In this document: positions 2,850 through 48,001 of the stretch, one piece after another | Position numbering within the stretch: position 1 is the stretch's first letter | Layout: each line of letters starts with the position of its first letter | DNA from: Pezizomycotina sp. ARF18 | Lineage: Eukaryota; Ascomycota | NCBI GenBank assembly: GCA_002224055.1 | Contig: AZLU01000017.1 | Span: forward strand, 230,540 to 291,657 | DNA: 61,118 nt | Reading direction: 5' to 3' | Made by a program: the position numbers and the translations under genes | The notes under the pieces: model-generated | The model's database searches: none | What the model was told of the DNA's origin: nothing | The model's input: the letters and a program-made list of their open reading frames with translations, nothing else

Positions 2850-4090
2850 TTAAGCAAATCCGAAGTATTCGGCACCTTGCGTCATGGCGGTGTGCAGGTT
2901 CTGGCGGAGCGTCTCGTAGCTTTCGTACTCGGGTAGATCAATTCTAAATAAAACATCAAAAAGCCATATTAGCAATCATCAATCAATGATCTTAAGGGTA
3001 ATAACAAGCAAAGGAGGTGGTTTACTTACGGTTGAAGCAGTATGACTGCTGGGGTAAACGCTCCTTGCTCCCGTAATCGCGGTGGATGTTGAATTTTGAA
3101 AAGCCGTTCATGCCCTCGAGCTCCTTGAAACCGTTGAGGGGCACTTTACTCGTTCCCGTAGCGAACTGCAGCAGCTTCGCGCGCTCTTCCTTGTCGAAGG
3201 AGCGGACGGCCCTCCAGAACCACTGGATCTGCGGCGAGGAAGCCGAGTAGTTGTGGTACTCGGTGTTGTTCCTCAGTCGTCGACCGTCGATGTCCGGCAG
3301 ACCGGGAAATCAGGAGTTCAAGTTCTTGCTCGTTGAAGATGGCGACGAGCTCCGCGGGGACGATGTCGTGGAAACCCTTGAGGAAGTTCTCCATCTGCTC
3401 TTTCACACTGTTGAGGAGCTTGTACTCGATGACGAGGCGGACGTACTCGTGTTGTTGTCCTGTGTGACGGCGATGTTCCTGCCGTTGGGGACGAGGTCGA
3501 CGACGGTTTCGGCTCCGAACTCTTCGGATTCTATACAGAAGTTTTCGGTTATCACGTCGGTGATGTCGTTCTCGAGCATCCACACGAGGGACTTGTAGTA
3601 TTCGAGGTCCAGGGTCTCCATGTCCTTTGAGCGAGACGTTTTGACCAAGGAGACGCTATATTATAATTAAAGTGTTAGACAAAAACTTCCATAGTAGATA
3701 TATAATTTTTTGATGTAGAAAGAGTTTTTCACGTACCTTGTAGACAGCTCTGCTGAAGTGACAATCCAAGACCCGCCTTCGTAAAGGGCCTTGCCGATGA
3801 TCCTACCGATGAACTTGAAGAAGCTCAGGTGCTCTGGATTGACAGCGCTCATCCTGTTCGGGTGGAAAGTCGTGCGGTCGGACGCAACGGGCAAGAAAAG
3901 TGCGTAATCGGGGTATTGAACATTTGCCTAGCGAGAACCTGGAACCATTCCCGGTAACACCACCAGCGGTCGACACCTCTTCACCTTGGAACCTGATGCT
4001 CAGCTTCGAATATTTGATCTCGTCGCCACCCTTGAGTACATCGCCCTGTAAGAGTCGAGGAAGACTTGGTCCCTCCTGACGTTGAGCTGC
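2850..4090 (-). other. HECT catalytic domain of TOM1
   Basis: The domain runs from the NVRRDQVF segment, through GEEGVDAGG and the [19 protein letters not shown] block at 3,780-3,840, to the final [12 protein letters not shown] and EYFGFA residues. The active-site cysteine is the TGC at 3037-3039 in the context CFNR, just before an intron (GTAAGT donor at 3029, acceptor at 2944-2945). One gained and one lost base close to this site scramble the SHT residues that normally precede the cysteine. The catalytic residue is present, so the ligase is probably active. Confidence 0.85.
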
Positions 4091-15963: not shown

Positions 15964-18900
15964 CTTTTGCTCGTCGTATCGTTCAATGTTCCGTTTTTGG
16001 AAGATAAAAGTAAAAGTAGTTATTGGGAGATTTGAGATTTAATTTCTTTGTAAGGGCGAAACGAGCCAAAAGTGACGTGTTATGTCGTCTGCCTACAAAA
16101 AAAAAGAGACCTCAACCTCCCCACAGCTTGACTTTGACCGCGCTCAAATAACCCGGCGTGACAAGGGAGAAACGGAAGTGAAAAGGATCTTTTTCGAGAT
16201 AGACAAACTGTGGATCGCCGACCTTAGAGTTAGTGGACGTACGTCGACGGTGATAGTAGGTAAGGTGAGTGAGAGAGTAATCGAGAGGAAGGAGTGGGAT
16301 AGCTGAAGGGGTGATATGGAGAGGAAATGTTTTGTTATAGGATGGAGGAAAGAGCAAGAGAGGGATAGGGCAGAGAAGAGAAGCGGGAGAGAGCAAATCA
16401 ATACTTAATATGAGCACGTAGTATTATTAAACAATATATATATCGTTAAAAAAGCTTCGATTTTTTCCAAAGGAAAGAACAGAGAACAGAAAACAGAACA
16501 GGGACGAAACAAATCGCAGAACAAACAATGAGATAGCAGCAAATAAGTAAAAGGGAAAGCAGCTGTAGGAGTAGTAGCTTTGTGGCTACTGCTGTTGCTG
16601 CTATCCGATAATGTGTTGATAATGTGAGATATACTGCGATCAGACAAATAGCAGTAGTAGTAAAGAGTAGGAGCTTTGGTTGGTGTGTGAAGTAATAAGG
16701 AAAGTGCGTTGGCGGGATAAAAGAAAAAATAAAATAGAAGACCTAAAAAAAAAAAAAATTAGAGTGGGGGACAATTTTTCAATTTTTTAAATTTTTTTTT
16801 TTTCTTTTACCCGGAGCTTGGGTGAAAATTTGCTTGAGTTTGGAGGCGAGATAAAATAAAATACACTATAAGGCGAGGCTCTGCGATAGCAAAATCTTAA
16901 TATCTCACAGCTTCAATACGTTCAATACGATTTTATTTATCTCAATCAGCTAAATACTTTGACTGCTATGAAGTACATATCATGATTATCATAGTCCTCA
17001 AGAAAGCCTCGTAGTAGTTGTTGTACTACGAGAATAAGTGGAGGATGATATAGTAAAGAATCTTCGAGATATGTAAGGCATTCCGTTCACAAAGAAAAAC
17101 CGCGTCTCGCACAAAGAAAGTTCAATTTCCCGTTGTAGTCGAACGAAACCGACGCGACGCTCTAGGGCTGATGGAGGTGTTAGTTCTTCCAAGGCGAGAC
17201 TCGGCAGAGAAAAAGTAATAAATATACAGTAATTAAGGTAAATCCCTTCTCATTACTCATCATTGTATCACCATGTGTCCCTATATCTCATGAGAGGGCT
17301 GCTCACAGCTGCTCATGGCGTTTGTGTTGCACTGTGAGCTCACAACCTTGGCAATAATGACAAACATAGACTGAAGCTATGGAAGTCACGTTGTTCCGAA
17401 GCCTTGAAAGCTCCCCACCGCGTCGGCATGCAGACGGTGTAAGCCGAAAATACATACAAGCGAAAGCACAAAAAAAAAAAAAAAAAAAAAAAAAAAGCCA
17501 TTACAAAACAGACTAAAGATAAGTGGCGGTATTGATTTCGCGCCCCTTCTTCGCACAGAGACTTAGGTAGGGTGAGTCACGACCTAGAGCTCTTATTTCA
17601 AAAAAAAAAAAATAGCTCGAGAGATGCCTCTTTCTTCCGAAAAGGTCGAGGCTTGGAAATATATATATCCTAGCTCGTGGTTCGCCAGCTCATCCAGCCA
17701 ATCACTTCTCGTTTCCCCGCATACTTAGAAGACAAACGTTTAGTTCGTCTGCTCCGGAAGAAAGAGAAGGCAGAGGTAATTTAACCTTGCAGCTCTCAGT
17801 CACGGTGCTTATATTACGTGCTCTGCAGTAGGTAATCCAGCAAATTGCAAATTTTGATAAAATGTGAAGGCTTTTTTTAAGATTTGCCGCCCAAGCTTGG
17901 GTGCAGCTTCGAGGAACTGGCAAACTGGCAACTGGTAAAATTGTTTCGTTTCCTCAATAGAAATTGCGCTCCCAACAATTTAGAAAAAAGTCTAACGGTT
18001 CATCGTGTGCTGATGTGAAGTATCGGCAACAAAAGCAGGGGAAATATAGAATGGATAAATTGAAAGAATCGATACCGTTGAAAGGATACGCAGTGTGCCA
18101 TGCATGGGATTCGATAAGCATGAAGCAGATAGAAGATTGCAATGTGGCGATCTAATATCGAAGATCTCGAATAAACGCTAAAGGGAACGGGCAGTTCGCC
18201 GCTGCCCGCGAGAAAGAGGGAACAAGGCTCGTCGGCTCAATTGACCACCAATCAATCCCAGCTCAGGATTGAATACGCGAATTAGCCTTGAGAGGAACCA
18301 CGGATCAGGCCGCCTGTTGGTTTCTGAGAGGCAAGTTCATCTTAAAACATCGAAACTCTTGTAACGGCACAAGCGAGAAAGGAAAAAGGGACTGAGAACA
18401 CTTGAAACGGTACCTGTTTTTTGTTTTTTGTTTTATCTTTTTTCGTTTCCTCCTCTTGCTTAAAAACGTTTGCGATAACAGTTTCGCAATGCGGAGAAAC
18501 CTCGAGCAGGGTTTTCCCTGAGGAGGGATATTATGCAGAGGTTTTTTTTTTTTTTTTTTTTTTTTGTTCTAACAAGGTTCAAGAACCCAGCTCCGAAGCT
18601 TTATAAATGTCTTTTTCGGCGAGAAAATATCGCATAAAGTGATTGACCTGCGGTAACATTCTCTCATAAGCGCAAATATTAGACGAGTTAGAGAAAGTTG
18701 CACTTTACGAAGCTCTTTTTTTCGCAAGTTCGCAACACCTTTTTGTCTTTCACAACGGAGAATTATACTTTTATAAGGAATATTCGAGTAAGGATTCTGA
18801 GGAACTCGCAAAGGGACAATAAACCAAAAAAAGGAAAACCACAGTAGCATAAACAACGTGGAGTTGATAGAAGTAAGTGCTGTCGTTCGGAACATTCTCC

Positions 18901-21862: not shown

Positions 21863-24800
21863 ATGGCTACCGCCGTTGCTCATGCTCCCGCTCCCCACAT
21901 CGTGGAGAAGGATCTTTTGCAGGAGGATCACAGGGTCGAGGACTCTGAAGAGGAGGAAGCAGAGGAGCACCTTCTCGACCACCACGAGACAGTCCATTCC
22001 GACGACGAGGACGAAAGTCACAGCGAAAGCGGAGAAGAAGGAAGCTCCGAAGAAGAGGAAGAGGAGGACGAAGAAGAAGCAGGATCAGGATCAGAAGCAG
22101 AAGTGCACGAGAGCACGCAGAGCATAGCGAACATGAAGAACATTCGGGAAGTGAAGTAGAAGAGGAGGAGAAGAGGAGGAGGGACAGGAAAGCAGTGAGA
22201 TGAGGAACATGGAAGTGTGAGTATCTCCACCTCTTTAATTCTACTATAGCAACAACAACAACAACAACAACACAAAAAATCGTCATCATTATCCTTTTCT
22301 TCAGACGAAAAAAAAAAAAACATTGTTTGCTCTTTTGGTTCAGTCTCGATTTTGGAGGAGTTACGCCATTTTGGTCCAAAAAACCGAGCTTGTATATTTC
22401 CGGACAACAGCTACGGTCGTTGCTCTTTGTTTTAAGGCAAACTTTATTTATTTTGTCGTTGGGACCTGTTTGGTGTCTGAGAATCATAGACACCCGTACA
22501 GTCTCGATCAATACATGATGATAGGAACTCGGAAGAGACCATAAAACCTGGATATCCCTCTAGAAGGAGATCAAAGGCTCTCTGTGCTTTCATTCTCCAA
22601 TATTTTTGCGATTTTTATTTTCCAGATCTTATATAATTATAAAAATGATTTTGAGGAACCCAAAATTCTTGTCTACTTTCTACTATATTGGAGCATGGAT
22701 ACTGACCCGTCTGCCAAAATTGAACAGTTCCACTCACCTACCGGTACTGGATCGCGGCCTTCCTCGCCGCGTCCCTCCATAGCGCGTGCTTTGACCCCTA
22801 CTCCTCCGACGCCTGCCTTCCCGCCTCAAACTCCCTCGACCGCCCCTGCTGAATCTACTACAGAGCAGACTCCGAAGCCAAAAAAACGGATGTCTGCAAC
22901 GTCACTGGATGATGTTGACCTCGTTGACGAGGACCTTAAAGCTGAATCGCGGCCGCACTCGCCAACCTCGATCAGCTCTACTAAATCTGAATCGGCGGTC
23001 ATTGTGTCGCCACCACCTAGGAAGAGCTCGAAGCTCCCCTGGTCTTCATCAGTGCCGCCCTTGACGATTCCTGACAAGCAGCAGTCCACTCCACCTCCGG
23101 GTCCGGCTGCTGCTCCTGCACCTGTTCAGCCTACCCGTCGTGGGCCGTTCGGTTGGTTCGGACGCGCTAGTACCAACTCTATTCCCCAATCGGCAGCCTC
23201 GACGTCGACAGAGAAATCGTCAACATCCGGCGGAATCTTTACGGGACGCCGTTACACCACATCTTCTACCATTACCAATTCGTCGGGTTCCCCGTCGTCG
23301 GCAACTCGAGGATCGCACGGTTCAATCCAGGGGATATTAACTCCTTCGACACAAAACTTCTTAATAAAACCCGTTAACGGGCAGGATCTCATCCAGCAGC
23401 GTATAGAGTCGACGAACTCACAACACGGAGTGGGTGCTCAGCAAGAGGAAACAAAACTGGAGCCGACTCCCTACGTGCCAACTTCAGGAAGCTTCGTGAG
23501 GCTGCTGGTGACGTTCCATCCCCCAAATCAGCTCCGGAATCGCCCAAGCTCCTTCCATCTCGAAGGGTCTCGGCCTCGGCGGATTTTTCGCGAGGAGCTT
23601 GTCGAGAAGCGATACGAGGAGTGACGAGGACCTCAAAGAAGCTCGCTGCCGAAGCCCTGAAACGCCAAAGAGTGGATCGACAGTTATACACTCCTCTGCC
23701 GAAGCTAGTCCTGCTCCAGGCCTACCACTGGGTCCGTTGAAGACGAAATCGACTGGGAATTTGGTCGTCCGTTGTTGAGGACTATTACTCCGTCGCGACT
23801 AAATCTTCACAGCTTTTGACGCGTCATATCCAAGCCGGTATCCCTCAACAATCCGCGGAACAGTATGGCAGGCCATGGCTCAGTCAAAAAACGAAAGTAC
23901 CGAAGTTGTCTACAAGGAGTTGCTTGCTTTACCTTCGACATTTACCACAGCTATCCCGGTCACAAAGCCTTCGTGGTCAGTTTTGCCCGAGTCCAAAGAT
24001 TCTCCGGAGAATGCAAAACCATTGCCATGCTGGAGAAGGAGATCAAGAAGGATATGGGCCAAAGAACCAGCTTCTCGAACTACAAGGGTTCAGGCAAGAA
24101 GGTCTCATGGGTCTTATGAAGGCGTACGCTGTATACGATCCCGAAGTTGGTTACGTACAAGGAATGGCATTCCTCGGAGCACCTCTCTTACTCAATGTAA
24201 GTTTCTTTCGTCTATTTATCTCACCCCACGCGTTTCATTCGCGTATTTTCCTCGACAGTATAACTAATTTAATATTCGAAAATCAGATGACCGAAGAGGA
24301 AGCGTTTTGCCTTTTGGTTGAGCTCATGAGGACCTACTCCTTCCGTGACATGTTCACGGTCGAATGAGGGGTCTCCACCTCCGCCTTTACCAGTACGATC
24401 GTCTCCTAGAAGATGTCTGCCCTGCTCTCAGCCTTCACCTTCTCCGCCGCAAAGCCGACTCGAAACTATACGCTACCCAATGGTTTCCTTACTTCTATTC
24501 GCCTATAATTCCCCCTCCAGCTCGTGCTACGCGTCTACGACCTGGCGATCAGCGAGGGTATTGAGGCGGCCATCCTGAAATTCGGCATCGCGCTGATGAA
24601 GAAGAACGAGGAAGCCCTCATGAAGATCGCTGACCTCGAGCAGCTGCTCCCGTTCCTGCGCGAGAAGCTGTTCGACGTGTATCTCGATACTTCCCCCAAT
24701 GCTAGCAGCTAAGGAGGCGGGCTTCTTCGGGAACGGAGGCGAGAAGGAAATTTACAGGGCCAACGAGCTCATCAGGGACGCGTGCGCCGTCAAGATCACG

Positions 24801-25360
24801 CCCGAGATGCTCCACCAGTACACGCTCGAGTGGGTCGAGAAGGACAAGCGGGAGATGGACGAGCTGATCGAGAAAGAGACGCTGAGGTCGCAGAACGCGA
24901 AGCTTTCCGCCAAGCTCAAGATCGTCGAGCAGGAGCTTCAGCAGATCACTCAAGAACACGTTCAAGTTGCCACGGACCTCGTCCACAAGAAGATGGAGAA
25001 CTCCCAGCTTCTGGATGAGAACGAAGGGCTCAAGGCTGAAGTCGACGAGCTCAAGGTGATCGTAGACAAGCAACCAAGAAATCGAGGCTAAGCTGAAAGA
25101 TGAGATGGAGCGTATCATGAAGAGGAACCTTGAGGTCCACCAACAAATCAAACCCTCGAGGACCAAATGAGGGAGATGGAAGTCGAGCTCGTCGGAACAA
25201 AGATGAATCTCGCTGAGGTGAGTTTATACTAATAGTAATGTTTTTTTTTTTTTTTTTTTTTTGCTAGATATGACAAATAACTAACGTGATTCTACTCAGG
25301 TTAATGAATCTACGAACACCTCAAACCCGGTGGGCTGAACTCAAACGCGCTCTTGAGTAA
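21863..25360 (+). CDS. gyp5: Gyp5-like TBC-domain Rab GTPase-activating protein
   Basis: TBC proteins speed GTP hydrolysis by Rab/Ypt GTPases; yeast Gyp5 acts on Ypt1 and Sec4 in ER-Golgi traffic and polarised exocytosis. The secure part starts at 22695 (MDTDPSAK). It has a Ser/Pro-rich disordered N-terminal region, a TBC domain (about 23.82-24.70 kb) and a C-terminal coiled coil ending RWAELKRALE at 25360. TBC marks are the IKKDMGQRTSF segment bearing the arginine finger, the DPEVGYVQGMAFLGAP glutamine-finger segment, and EEAFCLLVELM after an intron at about 24.20-24.28 kb. The exon at 21863-22216 encodes a very acidic segment. It ends in phase 2 at a GTGAGT donor, and a possible acceptor at 22692-22693 restores GTC-ATG-GAT in frame, so I include it as exon 1. 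The 477-base intron is long, so it could instead be a separate small gene. Several internal frame breaks look like sequence errors. Confidence 0.82.
22250..22272 (+). repeat. CAA trinucleotide microsatellite
   Basis: About seven uninterrupted CAA units lie in the proposed first intron of the TBC gene, or between two genes if the acidic exon is separate. Confidence 0.9.
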
Positions 25361-27305
25361 ATTCGAGAAAGCAACCCCACCACAATCCGAAGCACTCTTC
25401 ATCCTCACTCTCTTCCCTTCGATCCGCACTCCCAATTATCACATTCTTCGTTCTTCCGCATCTCCGCCTAAAGCATCGATAATCCCTGGCCAAATAATAA
25501 AGGCAATCACTAGCCTTTTTGTATTTAAACAAAAACCCTTTTTATTTAATATCTGTTTGTCTTTCGAGCATGTTTGTGATTACTTTATCCCTTTGGCAAG
25601 TTATGTCTCCTTTTGCTTTGTCTATACTCCTTTTATCCAAATCTGCACTATTAATTTACAATTACAAGAAGTGTCAGAACGTACTTTACTCTTCGAGTAT
25701 CGTCACTGTAAACTGTATCCAACTGTATCCTATCAAAAATAATGGCTTATCATTACTTGTTCTGCCTGACTTTTATAAAAAGAAAAAAAAAAACACCCGT
25801 GTACTACTAAACAAATGTATAATACTCTATACTATCTTTTCATTTCGAGAATTTGTCTTCATGACTTAGCGAGCTTATTCTTTTTTTCGTCTCTTGCAAT
25901 GCAACAATTGAAAATATTTATATTCCGCCCCCCCCCCCTCTTTATTATAATAGTAATAACAACGCGATGATTTTTGATTTGTCTTGTCTTGGTCTCTGCC
26001 TGCGGTATTCCCCCTTGCAATTGGAATGCTTAGAACTAGAATATAGAATAGATCTAGATTTTTTAGGACTACTAAAGTATATATATACTATTAACATGTA
26101 TCTATAGATCTAAATCTATTTTTATTTATTTTTTGCATTAATATTCTCGACAGCGGAAAAAAAATCCTAATGCCCTTTATATTTTTATAAATTTTATTTG
26201 TTATATGGAACCATACGTAATATTTGATGCGCATTATTGTTGGACATTTTGCTCTATATTCTGTCCGGGTACATTACGATCTATAGTTCGAGATCTGACG
26301 TTTTCCTTTTCTTGTCTAAGACAAGCTCACTAGTCGCTGCTGCGCAGTATCCCTCAACCAATTCTGTGTTTTTTTTTTTTTTTGGTTGGGGACCAATTAG
26401 CCCCATCCTATACATCATGATCTCATGTCTTGGGAAACAATTTGGTTTGGTGTTTTTATTATGTATATATATAATATATATATATATAGCAGAACCTTAA
26501 ATACTACGAGCTTAGTGCCTTGACTTCATTCAGTAGACTGTGCAAGCACTGTTAAGCTGGCAAGGTGAAGCAAAAAAAAAAAAAAAAAAAGGAAAAGAAA
26601 GAAACATTTTCCTCTTATTTATTTCCACCAGCCACAGGTAGCTTTCTTTCCCTTTAAACACACGCTATCTAATTGCTAAGCCCTGCACCTATGGAGCTGT
26701 CTTGAGCTCCCATTGGGCATCCACTTCTAGAGTGTTAAGAACTGTCTGATATAGGGTCAGGACATCGTTCGTCCAGTAAGTAAGTAGCCCGTTACTTCAA
26801 CACCCCCTCACAAACCTCGATGCCTGCTCGTTCCCCCTCTTTATTTCTTGTATGCCCAAGCCTCCAACGCTTTGCCTTGACTATTTAAGCGCCTCTTAAA
26901 CTAACCTCAATCGCTCTTAGCGCTCATCGCGGTGTATATCACCATAGCTGCAATTAACACCGGAAATCTCGCACTCGCAAGGAAATAACAACGGGAAGGG
27001 AGAAATAGAGGGCTATTGAGCGGCTATTGGAGCGGCTATCGAGAACCTTAAGAAGAAACTCGAACCCCGTTTTTCAGCGTTGCATTTGCAAATCGGGACA
27101 ATTTCGAACAATCAGTTAAAATTGCAACAGCAGTTTAAAAATTATGGAAATTGTTTTGTATGTTCTTGCCCTTGTACAGAATTCAAATATAAAAAAAAAA
27201 AAAAGAGAAAGAAAGAAAGAAGAAAGAAAGAAAGAAAAGGGAGAGGGAGCGGGAGCGGAGAAATTTCTACGTGTCGAAGCTAATCTCGTATCTCTATAGA
27301 GTATC
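25361..27305. other. Spacer after the TBC gene
   Basis: AT-rich non-coding DNA. It contains a 22-base-scale T run near 25240, a C run near 25929-25938, an imperfect TA microsatellite around 26463-26488 and an A run near 26572-26590. The part from 26,640 to 27,300 probably includes the upstream region of the next candidate gene. I see no gene. Confidence 0.6.
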
Positions 27306-27929
27306 ATGGGTTTCTTGGGAGTAAAACCGCCGGGGCAAGTAGCTATCGGTAACAGTCCTCCTCCTTTCTCTTCTTTCCTTTCTTTCCATTTTCATTTTTC
27401 TCACTTTTTACTTCTTTTTTGCTTTTTCTCCCGCTCCCAGCGAAGTGCCCATCTCCGGCTTCCAATGGTAATGGTTCCCCGCTGGTAAGTTTTCTCCTTT
27501 CCGCTCTTTCTCCCACTTGTTCATACCTCTTCTCTACCCGAAAAAAAAAAAAGCACCATTTCTAATCTCTTCTACCTTTGTAGGTGACAGTAGTGGTTCT
27601 CTATCTTTAGCTGATAGTCCTCCCTCCTCTGCTGGTGGCTCTAATGGTAAGACGTTTTCTCTTTTTCCGCTTTTTCTCTTATTGTTTATACCTCTTTATA
27701 AAAAAAAAAAAAGTACTATTACTAACTTGTCCGCCTTTGTAGTGGAAACGGTGGTTCTCTATCCCTAGCGATGGTTCTCCTTCGTCTGCTGTGGCTCTAA
27801 TGATGGGCAAGTTTTCTTCTTTCCGCGCTTTTTCCTACTTGTTCGTACCTATTCTTTACCAAAAAAAGCACCATTTCTAACCCCTTTATAGATAGCTACG
27901 GTATCCTTCCCCCCCCCGGTCGACTCTGA
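27306..27929 (+). CDS. Candidate small Gly/Ser-rich protein from tandemly duplicated exons
   Basis: I do not recognise a family. The proposed exons are 27306-27348 (MGFLGVKPPGQVAI), 27441-27484, 27584-27646, 27743-27806 and 27892-27929 (ending YGILPPPGRL). The third and fourth exons encode nearly the same peptide, GSLSLAD...PSSAGGSN. They are 63 and 64 bases long, and the introns before, between and after them are also copies of each other: a pyrimidine-rich start, an A run, a TTTCTAA or TACTAAC branch and a TTTGTAG-like acceptor. The last intron would use a GC donor (GCAAGT at 27807). All introns would be phase 1 if one base is missing near 27484 and small shifts are allowed in exon 4. The predicted protein is about 75 residues, low complexity, with no clear signal peptide. 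It may be a decaying gene or a 5' part of something longer. Confidence 0.4.
27485..27891 (+). repeat. Three tandem copies of an intron plus exon unit
   Basis: Units of about 150-160 bases follow one another: intron 27485-27583 with exon to 27646, intron 27647-27742 with exon to 27806, and intron 27807-27891. The introns share a start like GTAAGNNTTTTCT, a TTTCCGC word, a TTGTTCATACCT-like word, an A run, then ACCATTTCTAA or a close variant and the acceptor. Copies differ by substitutions and by A-run length, so the duplication is not very recent and is not an assembly stutter. Confidence 0.7.
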
Positions 27930-28242
27930 TCTTGATGGGTCAGCACTATGGTAACCGGTAACGACTACTGGTAATTCTGGAGCTTCCTCGGAGAGACATT
28001 TTTATTGAAATTATATGCCAAGGATGGGTAGTTTCTACTTTTATTACATGGGGTTTTAAAATTTTCTTTCTAGGATGTTGTCCTTCTTTCGGGTATGGGG
28101 TTTTTCTTTTTTAAGATGCTATGTTTTTTAAAGCGCGGTAGTTGGTATCACCAGTTAAATGTAACGTCGAGAAAAAAGAAACCCTTCGCCGAAATGCAAA
28201 TAAAAAAAAAAACGCTATAATAAGAAAGCGAGCTCCTAATCC
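27930..28242. other. Short spacer before the MMS22 3' end
   Basis: The stretch separates the plus-strand candidate gene from the convergent MMS22 gene. It is AT-rich, with an A run near 28202-28212 and no open frame of note. Confidence 0.6.
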
Positions 28243-31200
28243 TCAAGCTCGAAAACCCATCATCCTCATGATCATCAACGCCCCCTCCCTCCGGAATAAC
28301 ACCGCAAAAATACATCCCCCCACCGCCGAAATCCTAACACTCCTCAACGCCCTCCTCCTTTCCCCTTCCCACACCTTCACTATATTCTTTAGTATAGGAT
28401 GCCTACCCGCGACCTTCAAATACTCCTGCATACCATCCGCCAATCTCGCTCTAACGCTTCTGTTCCGTAAATCTTTATACTTCTCATACTTCACAACCCT
28501 CCTACTCCCACCCCTCGCGGCAGATAACTCGTCCCGATGAGCAAAAAGTCCCTGCGTAGGCGGTTCGTAAGCTCGGCGTGGAAGTCGTTCCTCTCCCTTT
28601 GGAACGGAGGAATATACTCCTCACCGGCGGGTTGAACTCCGGCGGAACTTCTCGCTGATGTTATCAAGGCACCCGCCAACTTCACAAAGTAACTAGCGCA
28701 CTCCACCGCGTGTTCCACCATTACCGCCGAAGTAGACGATTCAGATAACCCATCGAACACGGATAACGAAGACGATAACACGCGGAAGTACGCTGCCAGC
28801 GTCTCCTGCTGTCCGGCTCGTACGCACAAATCGCGATCTTTCAACCAATCCTCCACCGCCAGACGCATGGAATCCCACGTGGCTACGATCATATGTAACA
28901 CCGCATCGACGGACGACGGATTAAACGAATCGACGCCGCATATTAACTCGGAAATAATCTTCTCCGCGGCGTTTATGACGGACGCCAACGACTTGACGGC
29001 CAGATTAACCAGCGAGGTCCGCGTATACGCCGGAAACAACACAAGCGCAGAAACAACCGCAGGCTCGGTTATCCACGTTCATAGCCTCGACGGACGCACC
29101 CGGTTTAAAAGCCGTAGATAACTGCGAGACTAAATACCCCTGCTGCTCATCCACCGCAGCGCGCTCGCACATAGAATGGAAGAACGATGCGAGCTGCTTG
29201 CGCGTACCGGAAGTATCGAGCTTCAAACCGTAATTCTTCAGCCTGCCGACGACGTACGTCGGATCCGTCCCCGGTAAGGGAACTGCGCCGAATCGACGAA
29301 GAAGCGGTCGATGGGGACGATGTCCGCGGTAAATTGCTGGAGATACTCGATGACCTGGTGCACGAAGGTGACGTAGCTGCTGCTGTGATTGTTATTGCTC
29401 GTTTTATGGCTACTGCCTTGCTGGAAATCTTGGAGCTCGAGGTAGTTGTCTTTCATCGCGGACATGAAGTACTTTAGCATGTCCGAGTACTCGACTTTGA
29501 TCTCTGCTGCTTTGGCGATGGAAAGCGTACAGGTAGTGTCGTAGGAGATGCGGATATTTTCGAGGACGGCTTGCAAGATATTAGCTTTGTAAAGTATTTG
29601 AGTGATAGCGTAGAAATGTCTTACTGGATATCAACGATAACCTCCTCTCTCGGAATTCCCTGCTCTGGATGTTATATATGCCATCTCTATTCCCCTCAAA
29701 CGGCGGGTTTTGGAATAGTGAATTCGACGGATCAGAGTTGAACAAAGTCGAGGTGAGTTCGTGTTGGAACTTAAGCATCGCATCCCGATCCACCAGAGTC
29801 GCAAGCCAAAATGATATGAAAGATAGTTTGTTTCCCTAAGATCGAACTTCGTAAGTTACTGAGCAAATACTGAGAATTTCGTGGGTCAAGGTACCTCATA
29901 CGCCGGAAAGCTACGACCCAGGATCTGCTGCAGAAATTTAGGAGTAAACTTCTTCCTCTGTTCCGTTTTCCTGAGCGTGAACCACGAGTATTTTCCGTAC
30001 TCGCCGATGCACTCGTCCCAGTCCTAAAAGAATTGTTAGTTATGCACTCGATCTCTCTAGGAAATTACAGAACATGAGTACAAACCTTCAGCCCTCGCTC
30101 AACCAGGAAGTTAACCAGTGAACCCAAGTCTCGAGAGTAGAAGTCAAGATCGGCTCGAGCGGCATGGAATCCGCGCGAAGCAGTTCGATTGTAAACGATG
30201 AAGGGGTCGTGGATCTCGTTAAGTAGGAACTGTTTGAACGTTAGCGATTCTGAAGTAAATTATTGTTGGGAAAGTATTAGTCTCACCTCCGCCGCCTTCT
30301 TCATATCTGATTCGATCACCATATCTTCGAATCCCGACAAGTCAAATTTTGACTTCCTCATTCGACTGCTGTTGAGAAGATACACCGAATGACTGTGCCA
30401 ACGTGATGAACTGCTGAACAACCTTGAGACTCTCCATGACCAATTTGTCGGGTAAAACGAACGCCAAGCTGAATACAGAAGACGTCGCCACTAAAGGAAT
30501 AAAACGAATAGTTAGATAAAGAACTATGGTAATAAAAAAAAAGAATGATATAACGTTTACCTTTGGTCATCAAAGCAACCATAGCGTCCACATTCTTCGG
30601 CATCTCCTTGAGCGCGTGCCGCAATAACCCAATCCCGAAAAACAATATATCCTCAAATACCCTCCTATTCTTCCGCACCACCTCATCAAACTGCTTCTCA
30701 TCAACAGAGTAGTTTCCCTCATTGAGGAGAGCAAGGTACTCCCCTGGCCTGCGTTTGCGCCTGCTGGTGCTGCTGCAGTGTCTTTTCATAATATTCGAAA
30801 ACCAGCTCATCAGCGGCGTAAGGAGCGAGATCTTGCAGTCGTTCGAGAGCTGGAACGTTATAATATTCGACCACGTCCTAAGTGCTACGCGACACGCCGC
30901 CAGGTGTGATTTTCTTAGGATCGACGAGGTCCGACAGGATGTTCAGTTGGAAGCGATGTTCCGGTAGCGCGGCGTAGTAAAGCGCCGTGAGCAAGTCGTG
31001 GTGATTACGCAGCGCGTGGAGGTCTTCTCTTTTCAACTCTTCTTCCTTGGGATACATGCGGCCGTGATTCGGTACTAGACGGAATACCAAGTTTCTAGCG
31101 GCATTCGGTGGAGCCGTTCTGTTCAAGAATTTCAGCCCGACGACGATAATTTTTAAGAATATATGGAAGCACAGGTCCCTATCTTCCAACTCGAGCGACG

Positions 31201-34200
31201 GATTCTTGTGAAGCTCCTCAAGAAAATGCGGCGATCTCGGTCCCCTCCTTCGTGAGATTGTTAAGCTTATTCCGAGCGAAGAAATCATAAAGCACGCCGA
31301 TGATATCGTTTGGCCGCGTCCAGCCCACTCGATATCAGCTCGAAGCAACGACCGTAAATAGCTCTCAAGTACGGATTATATTTAGGTCGCTGCAAAGGTG
31401 TCGAAGAGTTGTATATAGCCAGCACTCTACTAACTAAGCCTTCACAAGCTTCCAATCATCAGAATTGTTCGTGGAAGAGTCACTTTTCCATTTGAGTTGA
31501 ACTGTAGTGTGGGTAGGAGGGTAAATAACACATTCCAGCGGTTTTCAAAGGTCGGAACGTCGTGCGCTTTGCCAATATCTGTGATACCGACAGCCGTATC
31601 GATAGCAGGCCAGATTTTGTCTCTTAGTAACTCGCTATTCGCCGATAATACCCGGAGGGTAACCCATATTTCCATAATGTAATTATCAGACTTGATTCCT
31701 TCTCGCCGTTGAGACGATTGTCTTTGTGCCGTGTAGCATTCTCTCAGCTGAGAGAGGCCAGACTTTAGGAGAGCTAAGAAAGTTTGTGAAGCATCTCTGC
31801 GGCATTCTTTGCAATGGAAATTCGTCTGGTACCCGTCGCTCTCCGAAAAGAAATTGAATTTGGGCAATGTGTAAAACGCTGAATAGTATGTTTTCAAGGC
31901 AAACTCGGAGCGCCGCCGGTCAGACGAAGTAGTAGTATAGTTGATGCGGAGACAAAGCTCCTCTATAGCAGGTAAAACACGTCTGGTGAAGGGATTAGGT
32001 CGATGAGATCTGAGAAAGACAGCGTTCGAGCCATAAAGTGTGATACAAATCTGAAGAACGCAAGGCTCTCCTCAATGAAGTCCGATACGGTCAAGTCCAT
32101 ATATTGATCGCCTTGCGTCTCTAATCTATCGCCAATCATTCGCATGATAGTCTCGAATTGCGCACCAAGGTCTTCGTCGAATACTTCCCAGCGCAGCATG
32201 GTCCCAAAACGTTCCGTTGCTGCTTCCGCTCGTTTCTCCGGCTAGGCGAGCGGGCGGGGTCTTTAACGCCTGATCGAGGTCCCCTTCTATAAAAGTGTCC
32301 GCGCGGAAATGCACATCTTCTGGGAAGGGTAGAACACCGAAATCGATCGAATAAAGGCTCCCGTGGCTCGCTAGCCCCGTCAAAGCTGCCCACTGCTTTC
32401 TGGTACGGATTCGACCACTAGAGAAATGTCATCGCTGACTTTATACGCCTTCGGCTCGACAACAGCAGCAACGTTCCTAGTCGGTGTTACTTTCCGCCGT
32501 GTCCTTCCCGGATGATGAACGACATTACGATTGAGCTCGCTTAATGATGGCTGATCGTTTATACTCTGATTGTTTATTAGTGGTGCGGGGTTTGTCGGTT
32601 TATATACTGAGGCTTGGGCACCCGACCGCTTCTGTGCTGTATGAGTCGTAGTATGGCGAGGAGCAGGAATACCTTCTGGAGTAGGTAATCGAAAACATTA
32701 TCTAATCTACGGTATGTAGTCGGTGCTGCCCAAGGTCGTACGCTTGAGACCGTCTCCAATTGCATTGTCATATATTGAGGCACTCGTCGCTGGAAGACAG
32801 CATTTGATGAACGCGGAACGACAGCCAAAGTTCGTTGTCCTGGTTTCGATTTAGATTTGGAAGAGGTAACTTTCTCAGCTGGGGAAGTTTCAGAGTTTAC
32901 CAGCATCCCGTCGAGTCTGCTTTGGTATTTCCGCCCTTGATGCTGTTCAAGTGAGAAGCGGGGTTGATCGTGACGTTTCTTCGTGCTCTCAGAAGAAGTA
33001 GACATCCTTCCGTATGCAGAGTTCCTTCCCTCCAATCCGAAGAAGCTGCGAAACTTCCCTAGAGTCCTCGTCATCGTCATCGAGCTGTATAAACTTCCCT
33101 TGGGACTAGCTCGCCCTTTATCTTTTCTCTCCGCGCCCTGCGTTTGGCAACCCGAGAAAAGGCGGAGTCTTCATCCTGGTCGCCGAAGTTTGGACCGGCG
33201 CGTCAAGGATACTAACTCTCTGTCGCGGCCGTGATGGCGTATGCCGTGTCTTCTTGGGCTTCTTCTTAGCGCCGGTTGATAGGTCGGTAGACTTCCTCTT
33301 CTTCGGATTAGCATCGAAGGGTATCCTAGACTGGCGGAGCGGTGCATTGCTCTGGCTCTTCTTATACGTTGTGCGAGGGCCGCGTGAAACCATTGTGTCG
33401 ATCCTGTTATCCTCGAAAGAGTCGCGAGGAAGATAGGGCGTGACCTGTCCGTTCCCGCCGGAGGAGAAGCCGTCCGAGAGCTTCCCGGCAGTCGAGACGA
33501 ACATCGGCGGCTCGTCATCGCTGGAGCTGATATCCGAATGAGCAAGCTATCAATCGGTCCGGAGTATTCAATGGCCTAGAGCCTCTCGCCACCTTTCTAG
33601 CTACGCCGGTCGTGACACAACTCTCTCAGGGAATGCGCAGGGTGCCTGTGCTGCTGCTGCTCGGTTATTTTTATTCTTCGTCATCTTCTGGTTGATAGTC
33701 AGATATGAAGCCGGAAGAACACCCTTCAGTTTCTTTTTGTACCGCGTCTTTTCCCTCTCCTCCTGTGCTTGTATTCTCCGCTGCTGAGAAGAATCATCAC
33801 TTTCCGCTCATCGGACGACGATTCGAGTACGCTTATAGCAGAAGCTCGAGGCGTACTCATCGGATGTCTCTTCTCAGGGAGCGAGGTAAACTATCTGAAG
33901 AGCTCTCGAAGCCGCCATTGTTCTGCTCTACTTCGAAATTGTTCATCGTATATCCTCGTCATCCGATAACGGCATAGCGAAAGGTCCGGTACGGTGCCAA
34001 CAGGCCTTTCCGCTCGCTGTATAGCCTCTGCTACAGAGGCAGTCTTATTAAGAAGTGCATTCGCATTACGAACGGACTTCGGTATAACTAAATGCGTCGC
34101 AGCAGGTTTTCCAGCCACATCCAAACGTCTCCTTTCACACCAGATTCAAAAGCCCTCCGGTCGCTATTCTTCCTCTGCGTCCGCTGTTCCAAAAGCTCGT

Positions 34201-35517: not shown

Positions 35518-36509
35518 CCGTAGCTCATTGAAATTGGAAAAGCAGTTATTGGTGATTAAACTCGGAAAGAAGAGAGACAAGAGAGAATGGATAACCCTGA
35601 CGGTCTTTTAGGAGGTACTGTAGTCGCGATACTGTAATTTATAGGAGTGCTGTTGTTGATCTGAGATAATTCACGAATAGTTAGTTCCCTTCGTTGCTGG
35701 TGAAATTGACCCTTTGTTGTGTTGCCATTAGTGAAAAGTGGGAATCCAATTCAAAGCAAATAACAAGCAAAAAAAAAAAAAAAAAAAAAAAAGCAAAAAA
35801 CAAAAAAACAAGAAGACGCGACTTTCCCGAAAAATGCGCGTGTCACGTGCAAATGACTCTATTCCTATAGTGCACGCTCCTTAGATCTCATTGCACGCAA
35901 TATCTTTTCGATAAAAATCCTTGGCATTGTATTATGGGGAAATACCATGGCCAATATTGCTTGCTATAATGCAATTTTCTTATAGGTGTGAGCTCTTCAA
36001 CCTTCTTTCTGTCCTTCTCTCTCTTATTATTACTTAACTTCCATTTGAAACAAAACACACAGACCATCTGCAGGTTCGCCGGAATTCGTCAATTGAGTGT
36101 CATTCTCCCCCCCATATTATTAAGGCACCCAATTAACAGCTCAAATGTTTTCCTTTTTGTTCCCGTATTTTTTATGTAATAACTGCTCATATTATAGGAC
36201 AGGATAAACTCCGTACATACATTGCCAGTTGCGCTCTTTTTCCGTGTCGCCTTTTCTTTAAGAGAAAGAGAGGAACTGATTTACAGAAATTGACAGCTCA
36301 CACTCACAGACTCACAGTTCACTTCCATCCTTTCTTCTTTTCCCCCTTCTTTTTTCGAATAAGAGACAATTGAGACCTTCTTCTCACCACTAAAAAACAC
36401 GGGTTTTTGCAGGTTGTTATCGCGATAGTAGTAAAGGGTCGTACTATAAAGAAGGGACTATATAATAAACCCGCATTCTCTCGTCGACAATTCGAAAGAT
36501 ATCGATTGG
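35518..36509. other. Divergent promoter region between MMS22 and a small membrane protein gene
   Basis: Nearly 1 kb of AT-rich sequence serves two divergent genes. It contains a 24-base A run at 35769-35792, pyrimidine-rich leader-like sequence near 36,240-36,360 and no open frame I would call a gene. Confidence 0.6.
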
Positions 36510-41621: not shown

Positions 41622-44600
41622 TTAACGAGGGCAATCGGTCGGGATGAAGTAATGAGTCCTGGTCAACGTGGTAGTAACCGTTGAACACATGTGGTGCAGG
41701 CTCATGTATTTGCAAGCGAACTCACTGTAAAGAAAGAAAAGAGGTTGTCAGTCAGAAACATCCATGTGCAGCTGCTGTTGAGGAATACTTACTCAATCAA
41801 AACCTCCTTGTTGCTTGCGAGAGCTTCCTCCAAGTCACGCTTGCGATACTTCGACAGCATATTCTTGGCAATCATAGCGCGGTAGTAATTTGGATCTGCC
41901 AGATATACAGTCTTGGTTGTCTGGATGCATTCCTGAGGAGCCGGTGTAGGAACCAAATTTAAGGTCGAGGGAGATGCAGGACGAGCTTTGGCGTAATTAT
42001 GCTTGGACCGGCGCGAACGGACGAATCCTCAGAACTGGAACGTTTCCGGATGGAACTTTAACAAGCAAAAATCAGCAAAGGAAGAAGAAACAAAAATAGA
42101 GAAGGGCAAAAAAAAAAAAAAGGAAAATAAAGAGGATAGAGTAGTTTGTAACGTACTAGCAGCCACAGCAGAGGCACCTGGAGCGGCAGGCCCATAGTGA
42201 GCAGCCGGACCATTCTGACCAACTGGTCCACTTGAGCAACCGGTGCATTCTCCGCAGCTGGTGGGTGCGGATACCGGACCCATACTGAGCACCGGCGCCG
42301 TATGAGCAGCAGGTTCATTGGAGGCACCAGATGCGTTCTGAACCGTGGGTCCATACTGAACGGCGGACCACTCCCAGAAGCAGGACCACTTCCAGAAGCA
42401 GGACCATTCTGACTAGCTGGACTATTCTCATACGTAGGACTATTCTGACCGCTGGCACCGTACTGAGCAGCGGGACCGTTCGGGGCAGCAGGGTTGTTTT
42501 GGCCAGAAGGACCGTTCTGAGCGGCAGGCACTTCAGCAGCTGGTCCATAAGGACGAGGAATCGGCACATTAGGGAAGGGAGCTCCTGAATCCAGAAGTTA
42601 GTGGAAGGAAAGGGCTGGACAAAAACGTTTGAAAGAAGCCTTAAAACAAAGAAGGACAAAAGAAATAAATATCAAGAACATACCAGCGGCAGCGACGGAA
42701 GCCAATGGGTTACCGGGCGACTCCTGATTAGCAGCGGAGCTCCAGGGCCGTACTGAGCGGCAGGACCATAGGGTTGCGGGGCTGGGGTATTGAAAGCGGG
42801 AACTATCTCAACATTAGCAGAAGAATGAAAGGTTCAACGAGGGAAGAAATATAGAGGGAAAAGCGGTTTAATATAATAAATCAAAAGAAGAAGGGGGCTC
42901 ATCCGAACTTACCACCTGCCACCGCGGTATTCAGTGGAGTTGAAGACTGCGGAACGGCTCCTAGAGTAGTAACGGTTTCAAACTCGTACTCATAAACGGT
43001 CACGGTTCGGACGTCATCACTCTCCTCATCAGGTTGATACGGAACATGAGGATAATAAGCGTGCGGGACCGGGATATTTGCAGTTGGCACTTCGAAAAGA
43101 AATTGTTAGATCAAAGAGAGATAACAAGAGTAAAAAAAAAATAGTTGTTGATAATATACCAGCTTCAACGGCAGGAGCCACCGGAGCATTTGGGACAGGT
43201 TGAGCAGGTCCGTATGGAATCCCCCGTTGATGTACCTATTTAGCGGGTGATAAACTGGATGTGGCATTGACAAGACGTCTCCCTCGGAGGACTGAACATC
43301 ACCAACAGAAGCGGCCTGGTAGTAGTAATAGCCAATCGCAGAAGTGACTGGAGCAGGTAACTCCCAGACCTGCTGTGGTTAGATGCCGAGAGGGTTGGGA
43401 TGGGAATAGCCATGAGAGGGTATCAGTAACGTTTGAGGCCACGCTAGTCGCTTCGACTTCAGTGCCAACGGCTACGACGGAAGTGACCGGGATGGACGAG
43501 ACAGTGATCCCAGAGAGGATAACACCGGGGCCAATACGATGGGTACTGATCGTAATCAGATTAGCTCATGAGCGTACGTTGAAATATACTTGGAATTGTT
43601 ACTTACTCGATATAGTTCGACGGTGAAGAAACCCCTGCAGTCTCCGAGGGCTTGACAATACCCGGCAAAGTTGGGTTACAATTTCGCTTGCTTCCGTGTT
43701 GACCAGTGAAAGAGAAGTCAGAGCTGGAGCACTCTCAGAACCGGAGGCAGTGGCCGGAAGAACAGTAGCAGAAGCCTCTGAGCTACCAGGGGCAGTTTCA
43801 AATTCGGCGGAGGATAATCCAGGCAGGGAAGTTTCAGTTGGCAGCGGGACAATACCGGGAAGAGTAGGCGAGAATTCGGGGGAGGTTGAGCTACCACTAG
43901 ACGATAAAGGTTGTGAAGGAGACTCTGCTGTTTCGGTGGCAATCGAAACATTTCCAGAGAAAGTCGGGGTGAAGGTGAGGTCACCAGCAGAAGTTGAAAC
44001 CGGAGCAAGAGATGAAGCTTGCCGCCCCCAGTCGAGAATGGAAAATTCCTGAAAGAGTGAGAGTGATATCGACTCCGCTTGGAGTACTTTGAACCGCACT
44101 AGACGAAGCAGCTGAAGTCTCAGACAGTGAGGAACCAGTTCCCGGATTTCCGCCATAGACGGGAACACCGGCAGAGTTTCCAGTGCCACTGAGTGAAGTT
44201 GACAATGGGCTTCAGTTGGAATATTAGACCCAGTACCTCTGAAGCTCTAGAAACCGCTTGTGTCCCGTTGGCAGTGTTGACCGCGCCTACAGATGACGAC
44301 TCCGGCAGCTCAGTTGGGATAGGAAAATACCGGGCAAAATAGGCGAGAACTGCGGAAGGCTTGCAGTATTGACAGCTGAATTGTTCGCAGCGGACAGGAT
44401 CGGGGAGGCAAGAGGGGTTTCCGCAAATGAGGAAACAGGACCGGAATAAGTCGCCCGTTGATGATAAACTGGACCGCTCGCAGCAGCTGAACCACTTGCA
44501 GAGTTTTCAGTGGGACTCAAAGAGGTTGATGCTGGAGCCCCTTCAGTCGGGACAGGGATGGTTCCAGGCAAAGTTGGAGAGAACTGCGGGGCAGATTCTG

Positions 44601-46232
44601 TACCGGAACCAGATGGAGAAGACCCTGAGTTGGATTCTGGCGACTCACTGGTTGGGATAGAACGATTCCCGGCAAAGTTGGCGAGAAAACGGAGTGGCGT
44701 TCGTACCAGAGGCAGATGGAGGAGAAGATTCCGCACCTGATCCAGTTGGTGCTGATGAGGAGACAGCGGTCAAACTAGCAGAACCTTCAGACGCAGTGGC
44801 AGTATTGCTGGGAACAGACCCGGAAGCCTCAGCCGAGAAGAACCTTGAACTTCAGTTCCAGTTGGCAATGGGACAATTCCTGAAAGAGTCGGAGTGGTCT
44901 CAGGCAAACCCTCAGTACCACTTGGACCAGACTCGGAAGCCTCAATTGAGAAGGAGCCCTGAGCTTCAGTACCAGTTGGCAACGGCACGATTCCTGGAAG
45001 TGTAGGAGTCGGAAGAGGAACAGTTCCTGGAAGCGTTGGAATGGTTTCAGGGAAACTTTCAGTACCGCTAAAATAGAACCTGAGACCAACTGAAGATGCT
45101 GGAATTTCAGTACCAGTTGGAATAGGAACAATCCCTGGAAGTGTGGGGTCGGAAGAGGACAATTCCTGGAAGCGTGGGAGTGAATTCAGGGAAACTTTCA
45201 GTCCTACTCGCCTCACTAGTTGAAGAAGAAGGAGCCTGTGATTCTGCTGGCGCTGAAGTAACGATACCCGAGAGAGACACGGGATCGTACAGTGCACCAA
45301 CAGCCCTCACGGAACTGGATCCGTAGCTCCAACAGTGGGAATGGGAATGATTCCTGGCAGAGTGGGGGAAAATTGGCGAGTTTCCGTAGGACCACTTGCA
45401 GAAACTTTGATCCAATGGGTGAAGACGAACCACCAATTGAAGTGGACTCCGCAGTTTGCTCAGTGGGGATTGGAATAATACCCGGCAGAGTAGGGGTAAA
45501 CTGACGAGTTTCCTCAGGACCACTCGCAGAAACCTCGCTGCCAGCAGGCGAAGACGAGGCACCCCCGTTGCTGCTATGAGGGCAGGAGCTGGGCCGTAGT
45601 ACTTGTACCTGTTGCCATTGCTGCTGGGACAACAGGAGCTTCACTGGAAGTCAATGGGACTTCCTGGTGAAGTATTTGGACCACTGGTAGGCGAGTTGGC
45701 AGAAGCTCCAACGGCTGCGACGGAGGAAGTTCCAGCTGGAGCAGGAGTGGACGGAGCAGCCTGAGATTCTCCACTCAAAGAAGTATCAATAGGACCTGCA
45801 CTTGAAACAGCCGGGGACCAAATTGAGTAACAGTTCCTACAAAGTTGGTACCCGTCAGCTTGGATTATCTTTCACACCCAATTGAAAAGTAATTTTGAAA
45901 GGAACTCTTTTTTTTTTATAACGTAAGGAAGACAGACAGAAGAAGAAAAGCTTACCTGGGCAAGAATACGTGGAGCTGACATAGGTGATATACGTTTCGG
46001 TGACCGTGAAGTGATTCGCCGAAGCAACTGAACCATCAATGGGACTACCACGATTATCAGTCAAAGGAGCTCGATGCAAAGCAAAAACGAGGCCAATTGC
46101 TTTCCATTGGAAAAAAAAGATAGCTTACCGAGAGATAGCAGCAGATTGAGAAACCCGCGGCAAGCCGAGAAGAATGGATACCAACAAGGGCACGAGCAAG
46201 AAGCTCGAACACTTTGCAAAGACGTCACGCAT
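41622..46232 (-). CDS. Secreted Ser/Thr/Pro-rich tandem-repeat (mucin-like) protein
   Basis: I do not recognise a named family. The start at 46232 gives MRDVFAKCSSFLLVPLLVSI followed by LLGLPRVSQSAA, a clear signal peptide, then a GTAAGC donor at 46128. The next exon begins about APLTDNRGSPIDGS and has VTETYITYVSSTYS, typical of fungal wall proteins. A long region (about 45.6-43.6 kb) is built from repeats around TPTLPGIVPLPTGTE separated by Ser/Thr/Ala/Glu-rich linkers. Then come segments with VTVYEYEFETVTTLG, an NGPAAQ-type low-complexity part (42.56-42.18 kb) and a distinct C-terminal part, ECIQTTKTVYLADPNYYRAM to HYFIPTDCPR, stopping at 41622. An intron at about 41.73-41.79 kb splits that end; more lie near 42.06-42.16, 42.59-42.68, 42.81-42.91 and 43.09-43.16 kb. 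There is no C-terminal hydrophobic GPI signal. It is probably a heavily O-glycosylated extracellular or wall-associated protein. Frame breaks are frequent, so repeat number is uncertain. Confidence 0.72.
42180..42560 (-). repeat. NGPAA-type low-complexity coding repeat
   Basis: The minus strand encodes serial variants of the five- to seven-residue unit QNGPAAQ, QNSPTYE, SGSGPAS and similar. It forms a Gly/Pro/Ala/Asn-rich linker in the secreted protein before its C-terminal part. Confidence 0.75.
43640..45600 (-). repeat. LPGIVPIPT coding repeats of the secreted protein
   Basis: At least a dozen copies of a motif close to FTPTLPGIVPIPTE occur, spaced irregularly (about 20 to 70 residues) by Ser/Thr-rich linkers. 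Examples are FSPTLPGIVPLPTET near 43,830, FSPTLPGTIPVPTE near 44,560, TPTLSGIVPLPTGTE near 44,880 and FTPTLPGIIPIPTEQ near 45,480. Some copies are recognisable only after a frame shift. At DNA level the copies are diverged, so they are not a collapsed satellite. Confidence 0.8.
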
Positions 46233-48001
46233 CTTGAACGAAGGTCAGTACGAACACAAATAACGCCAGTTGGCTGAAACGAACCACGGATGATAAAACA
46301 ATGGCTCTCACGATGAAGCCAACTGGAGATGGATTCTCATACCTTTCCAATCCTCAACTTGCTACCAAATTACCAACAAGTGCACAAATGTTACTTACCT
46401 TCGAGAACGAGATTTGAAGATAATAGACAGATCAAACAACAAGGTATTACTTAATAAAGACTTCACGAACAATAGAGAAGAACGAAAGATGGAGAGAAAC
46501 GAAAAGTCAAGGAGAATGCTTTATTGATCACGATGTTGTAAAATTTATAAAGAAAGAAATAAAACACGGGAAAAAAATAATTTATAGACAGAAAGGAAGA
46601 TTGTTTGTGGGAAGAAAGAAAAAGAAAAAGAACAAAAGAGGAAGGGGACGGTCGAAGGTGTAAAAAAAAATCATTATTATTAAAAGGTGACGACGTCGAA
46701 AAAAAAAAAAAAAAAAAAAAAAAAAAACAGTCAAAAAGAGCAAACATTGAAAATTTTTTCAACAATCACGTATAAAAAAAGAGAAATGAAACAAAATATA
46801 TGGGCCAACGATAATTATTTAGTATGAGAAGAATATATTACGCCCTTTTTTAAGGCACCTAATCACTTGGACAGCGATAGGTTCATCTAAACTACCAAGC
46901 TGGATAAGTGTACGTAGATCGTGAGATATGTACAAGTAATCATATATATCAAGATATTAAACGAGTCCTGCTGTCCGTATTGTGTATCCTCTGTAAAATG
47001 TCCTTGGCCAGCTTATTTGCTAGTAAGATGTATTGTGTAATCCTTTAAAACTTGTCATCCTGCCGCAAAAGAGCGTCGTCACTCTCATTTGCAACAATAG
47101 TAAATCATATATTCGATATTGGAGAGCATCATCAACAAGAGTTCAATTTATCCCCCTGCTCTACCGGTACCTCTCACTCTCTAACCCACGCTGCAGATGT
47201 AATATAAGTAGTACTGCTTATTAATGTTTAATATTTTAACTCGCTGGAGCGAGGGTCGTTTATCTGTAATCACTGCAATACAGTAAATATCCCAAGGATC
47301 TCTACGCTTCTCATTTCGCCTAACAGCACCGTTCAACATGGCACAATCCCAGTAGGACGTTTTTTGCGTATATGTGACCTTTGCTAGAGAAAATAAACTA
47401 AACTGAGCATGTCAGTATTAATGCTATAACATTTTTTCCTAGGATCCTATGAACCGTCGATGTTCGAATGTTTAGCTGGTGCGGCCAGACGGTTTTAATA
47501 GATGGCATGGAAGCTTACTTTACTTTTACTTGAAAGCTTGATATCAATATGAGGACCGTTTTTCCAATACGAAGCTTTTTTAAGTCTTAGTATGTTTGAA
47601 AACACCTGTATATTGGCAAAATGATAGCGTCCTGAAAGGTATTTTCATATAGATATACTCAATATACAAATACTCTTCTAGTTGAATTGTACAATACTTA
47701 GAGGTAGGAAGGAATGTCGTGAGAGAGGTTCGAAGGTGTTGAAATTAATGGTTCCCATGATAAGTTGTACCACTATAAGTAGAATACCTAAGAATAGGGG
47801 AGTGATTGTCATTATTGTTTCCCAGCCGCCGACTAAATTTAGTGGGGCTTCTAAACGCCAAGCCAAGCTTTCCTAAAGCTCCCCCATTTTTATCTCCCTC
47901 GCAAACGTAACAGGACAAGTCTCACTTTATTTCAACAAGCATCTATCTCCAGCCGTCCGTTCTTTTCCTTTCTTCGCCATCACCATCATATCTCTTTTAA
48001 C
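46233..48001. other. Divergent promoter region between the repeat protein and SEC17
   Basis: A GTAAGTAAC donor-like word on the minus strand near 46390-46399 may belong to a 5' leader intron of the repeat-protein gene. The stretch also has the longest A run in the window (29 A, 46699-46727). A pyrimidine-rich leader lies just before the SEC17 start (47,930-48,000). No gene is recognised. Confidence 0.55.
46699..46727 (+). repeat. A29 homopolymer
   Basis: Twenty-nine consecutive A, the longest homopolymer in the window. Comparable runs lie at 17470-17496, 18542-18565 (T), 35769-35792, 55472-55494 (T) and 56345-56367. Confidence 0.95.

Follow-up and report, generated by a model that had tools for sequence, protein, structure and literature searches.

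The window analysed here (61,118 bp; G000:C17:230540-291657, from a 408-contig assembly of 46,361,250 bases that its genes suggest to be fungal) contains an intron-exon tandem duplication at 27485-27891 that is real and old. New here is that the segment lying immediately 3′ of this array, at 27914-27981, is by sequence comparison homologous to a dehydrin-like DPR gene of another contig. In our judgement there is about an even chance that the array and the fragment together represent a partial paralogue of the genome's dehydrin-like (DPR-motif) gene that lies between two other genes, is diverging and has probably lost its function. The array and the fragment would then once have been part of one spliced transcript; the intron-exon block would have been copied by unequal crossing-over, whether between two similar introns or involving the block in its entirety, and exons and introns would since have drifted at an equal rate. 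The locus resembles what is left of a duplicated gene that has since drifted, not a repeat protein under construction. If transcribed, it would provide a small, datable case of fungal intron-exon unit duplication and would show how copies of a repeat-rich stress-protein gene arise and are lost.

Structure and genomic context of the intron-exon array

The homologous array has the order intron-exon-intron-exon-intron and spans 27485-27891 (approximately 2.5 copies). Following the numbering of the exon-intron chain proposed in the initial annotation (i1-i4, e2-e5), it consists, on the forward strand, of intron i2 (27485-27583; 99 nt, GTAAGT...CTAAT...TTTGTAG), exon e3 (27584-27646; 63 nt), intron i3 (27647-27742; 96 nt, GTAAGA...CTAAC...TTTGTAG), exon e4 (27743-27806; 64 nt), in which the frame is lost relative to e3, and intron i4 (27807-27891; 85 nt, GCAAGT...CTAAC...TTTATAG). 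The sole open frame of e3 among the three forward frames reads GDSSGSLSLADSPPSSAGGSN and lies within an open frame of 98 codons. TRF, self-BLAST and pairwise alignment all gave a unit length of about 157 bases: TRF reported 2.4-2.5 copies of a 157/158-base unit within 27487-27880, with scores of 389 and 400 that were the top two of 22 rows, and BLAST of the window against itself aligned 27489-27709 with 27654-27867 at an E value of 4.6e-22. Identity outside gaps in the pairwise alignments was 79/92 (86%) for i2/i3, 75/85 (88%) for i2/i4, 68/82 (83%) for i3/i4 and 50/59 (85%) for e3/e4, and the scores of i2/i3, i2/i4 and e3/e4 were each reached by 0 of 1000 dinucleotide shuffles.

These results uphold the proposal of tandem exon-plus-intron units for 27485-27891 and do not extend it upstream. 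The first intron and second exon of the proposed chain (i1, 27349-27440; e2, 27441-27484; forward strand) have splice-like ends and no detectable homology to the array, as shuffles scored as well in 350/1000 cases for i1 against i2, 78/1000 for i1 against i3 and 732/1000 for e2 against e3. Comparisons with e5 gave a similar outcome (724/1000 for e3 and 329/1000 for e4). The outer boundaries of the array fall on splice sites, with detectable homology ending there at both sides. The two exons had been described as near-identical, which is an overstatement given nine mismatches among 59 aligned bases and five gap events. Since the copies are 12-17% diverged, it is not likely that the array is an assembly duplicate.

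The splice signals of the predicted introns are plausible, judged from their sequence. The A-run, the CTAAY branch word and the TAG acceptor are in register across i2, i3 and i4, as first noted, and the suggested GC-AG intron holds as a sequence fact for i4 (donor GCAAGT, compared with GTAAGT in i2 and GTAAGA in i3). In the region 27200-28100, 12 pairs of donor and acceptor enclose a branch word, including i2, i3 and i4, which have the best donors. A strict intron pattern (GTAAG[AT], CTAAY 8-20 bases before YAG, length 80-110 nt) was present five times on each strand of 252,827 unmasked bases, i2 and i3 being, from their letters, two of the five on the forward strand; block shuffling gave a mean of 3.85 (20 shuffles, one strand), and genome-wide the pattern is no rarer than chance. 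By post hoc arithmetic, the chance of its occurrence in one given 157-base unit is about 0.2%. Invariant positions made up 50 of the 81 ungapped intron columns, three copies being too few to judge whether the splice signals are better conserved than other positions. Long A-runs are found repeatedly across the window (e.g. 17470-17496, 35769-35808 and 46699-46727 in TRF), and were also seen in some candidate introns elsewhere on the contig, in sets that were small and impure and in which masked N could be read as open.

From the flanking ORFs, the array appears to lie in the intergenic region separating two convergent genes. To the left, the nearest ORF of at least 150 aa (24624-25091, forward strand) has a weak TBC match; a clear TBC match is located upstream of it (23744-24364), and an overlapping antisense ORF extends to 25223. 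To the right, the nearest ORF of at least 150 aa (28491-29078, reverse strand) has no Pfam match and is followed by Mus7/MMS22 (30881-31375, reverse strand). Further along the window, 42058-45640 on the reverse strand carries low-complexity ORFs in which TPTLPGIVPLPTGTE-like blocks recur; the one ORF compared with Pfam had no match, and tandem DNA similarity was evident at 44808-45533 in the self-BLAST.

No second copy of the array was found in the 46.4-Mb assembly. DNA searches with the intron-exon unit (three matches) and with i4 (two matches), using a tool that ignores simple repeats and highly frequent words, returned places in the array only. A search for the exon peptide had been proposed for fungal proteomes; the search reported here had the organism's own assembly as its scope and found no further copy there. 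A plasmid collection (22 records) gave short matches only (best E 0.1), and the papers listed on tandem exon duplication in fungi showed, in their titles and the opening of their abstracts, nothing on the e3 peptide.

A dehydrin-like fragment 3′ of the array

When 27892-28260 was searched against the assembly, the one non-self match was C10:335377-335451 (E 4.6e-9), which lies in a dehydrin-like gene with six DPR repeats (L051 1304-2520; G000:C10). This gene encodes MSNIVNKVKEAV... with recurring GPHSSN- and NKLDPRVDSDLDGS-like blocks, corresponding to the published signature of fungal dehydrins (PMC1550403, PMC3788798). A protein search of the assembly with one of its repeats produced six matches, all within the same gene, making L051 the only member recognised by that search. 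Most repeats share one exon, three of the six sit in a frame other than that of the preceding stretch, and an intron is likely to interrupt the signature between SSNL and ANKLDPR, as deduced from sequence and frames. Comparison of five L051 frames with Pfam gave no match.

The fragment at 27914-27981 (forward strand) aligned with repeat 1 and the adjoining linker of L051 (1501-1575) with 60 of 75 columns identical and a score of 88, compared with a mean of 26.7 (sd 3.7) for 300 shuffles, none of which was as good; the other L051 repeats scored 24-51. It begins 23 bases past the last acceptor of the array, and one of its frames reads VDSDLDGS. The distance at which the last acceptor precedes VDSDLDGS is similar to that in L051, so that the two may have an intron position in common. 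The full DPR signature is absent from the window, the VDSDLDGS frame reading IATVSFPPPVDSDLDGSAL, without the H, N and D before the P. The initial annotation had known of no described fungal family with the exon peptide; the search with the e3 peptide found no other copy in the assembly, but the sequence after i4 is homologous to a dehydrin-like DPR gene.

DPR-family homology was detected for 27914-27981 only, the array exons showing none in the same kind of test. Against L051, shuffles were as good in 79/300 and 167/300 cases for the two exons, and in 687/1000 and 871/1000 in a second test; against 27914-27981 the corresponding figures were 851/1000 and 809/1000. Also against a shared intron position, shuffles were as good in 188, 54 and 201 of 300 cases for the three array introns compared with the L051 intron region, and in 263, 399 and 641 of 1000 for exon ends of the window compared with the L051 exon end. 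With neither the exons nor the introns of the array detectably homologous to L051, it is adjacency that connects the array to the fragment.

Reading frames and alternative explanations

It had been suggested that exons flanked by phase-1 introns could be copied without a change of frame, and that a repeat protein might be growing in this way. The spliced frame of the chain as proposed contradicts the first suggestion, since it translates to MGFLGVKPPGQVAIAKCPSPASNGNGSPLVTVVVLYL and then reaches a stop in e3, the first repeated exon. An alternative e2 donor at 27468 allows the Gly/Ser frame to be entered and leads to a stop in e4 (27743-27806), and a chain that skips 27743-27806 stops as well, hence all three chains tried end in stops. 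The e3/e4 alignment contains five gap events, whose lengths of 2, 1, 1, 1 and 4 bases are in no case divisible by three, and the divergence of this pair (9/59) is comparable with the intron values (13/92, 10/85 and 14/82). Exons that have diverged as much as introns give no sign of protein-level selection, and with copies 12-17% diverged they offer no evidence of present growth; with all chains stopping and exon drift equal to intron drift, the idea of a growing repeat protein is unsupported.

Small indels are common in this assembly, and signs of them recur in CCT chaperonin genes on other contigs. Twenty profile-contiguous junctions were identified among 36 CCT/Cpn60 matches in the assembly, and 10/20 were frameshifts without intron space, two of them at one place on contig C99. 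In the window, the reverse-strand gene at about 2.9-15.3 kb, which we take to be of HUWE1/TOM1 type from its DUF913 and HECT matches in Pfam, changes frame within the HECT domain near 3451/3454 (profile 139 to 139) and 3299/3303 (profile 190 to 189); by Pfam match coordinates, from which these positions were derived by hand, neither change leaves room for an intron. The HECT profile had 14 matches across the assembly, and of the comparisons of pieces of this gene with PDB, one was empty, one gave a chance match (E 1.7) and one a UBA domain. As conserved genes carry small frameshifts, a broken frame is no proof of a pseudogene or of decay; frame evidence is therefore weak both for and against a functional array, and conclusions drawn from reading frames should not be relied upon in assembly GCA_002224055.1. 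Judged by eye, the five gaps in e3/e4 look denser than the frameshifts of other genes.

The unreliability of frames here, with half of the CCT junctions and two places in HECT affected, favours a live small gene that has two duplicated exons, encodes a disordered Gly/Ser-rich protein and has its frame masked by assembly indels. Of the 21 residues of the e3 peptide, 8 are Ser and 4 are Gly; i2 and i3 are multiples of three in length, and no stop interrupts the Gly/Ser frame over 98 codons around 27584-27646, so that an unspliced reading is possible too. The codon score of e3 was matched or undercut by 26% of coding pieces and matched or exceeded by 52% of open non-ORF pieces, in a codon-bias model that separates the two poorly (means 0.036, sd 0.103, and -0.025, sd 0.090, respectively). 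We nevertheless regard a live gene as unlikely, given that exons are conserved no better than introns, that a single exon pair contains five short gaps and that all three chains run into stops. The equal drift of exons and introns and the lack of a maintained reading frame would also be expected of a spliced untranslated transcript, or of a simple minisatellite-like duplication between genes in which the splice-like words are incidental, a possibility that we consider somewhat unlikely in view of three full in-register sets of donor, branch and acceptor, array boundaries that coincide with splice sites and the DPR fragment immediately 3′ of the array.

Copies of a mobile intron (introner-like element) would account for homology that ceases at splice sites at both outer ends, but unit and i4 DNA searches returned array places only, and short-word matches, the array's own places counted, were about equal to or fewer than those of reversed-pattern controls (23 versus 40 and 26 versus 25), making this explanation very improbable. 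It is also doubtful, though less so, that the locus is a dehydrin-like paralogue with its own exon and intron for each repeat, to which repeats were added by copying intron-exon units, an organisation unlike that of the C10 gene. There was no support for a structured RNA: 27485-27742 folds no better than shuffles on the two strands (z 0.31 and 0.84). There was no Rfam match at gathering score within the window.

Comparison with known systems

Fungal dehydrin-like proteins carry the DPR signature [GRK]-[PV]-H-x-[ST]-x-x-x-N-x-x-D-P-[RTP]-V-D-[SN], according to PMC1550403, which also reports internal repeats in the family. Members include TbDHN1 (PMC1550403) and AbDhn1-3 (PMC3788798), together with DprA/B/C and DlpA as cited in PMC3788798, where homology outside the DPR motifs is described as poor. 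Like these proteins, the array peptide is Gly/Ser-rich, and 27914-27981 aligns with a repeat and linker of L051; unlike them, the window lacks a full signature and its repeated exons are unmatched. TbDHN1 has one intron (PMC1550403) and AbDhn2 two conventional introns and one that is alternatively spliced (PMC3788798), whereas the array has an intron for every repeat, an arrangement of which the available text of both papers gives no description.

The array also resembles tandem exon duplication (Kondrashov and Koonin 2001, as cited in PMC3064661) in its adjacent homologous exon copies with a flanking intron, and departs from it in that the copies showed no shared usable frame in the three chains tried, all of which stop, in an assembly with indels, and show no sign of alternative use. 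The occurrence of similar introns inside one locus recalls fungal introner-like elements (PMC4457414). Such elements are many, dispersed and closely similar, whereas searches of the assembly did not find the introns of the array dispersed, and the exon between them has been copied too.
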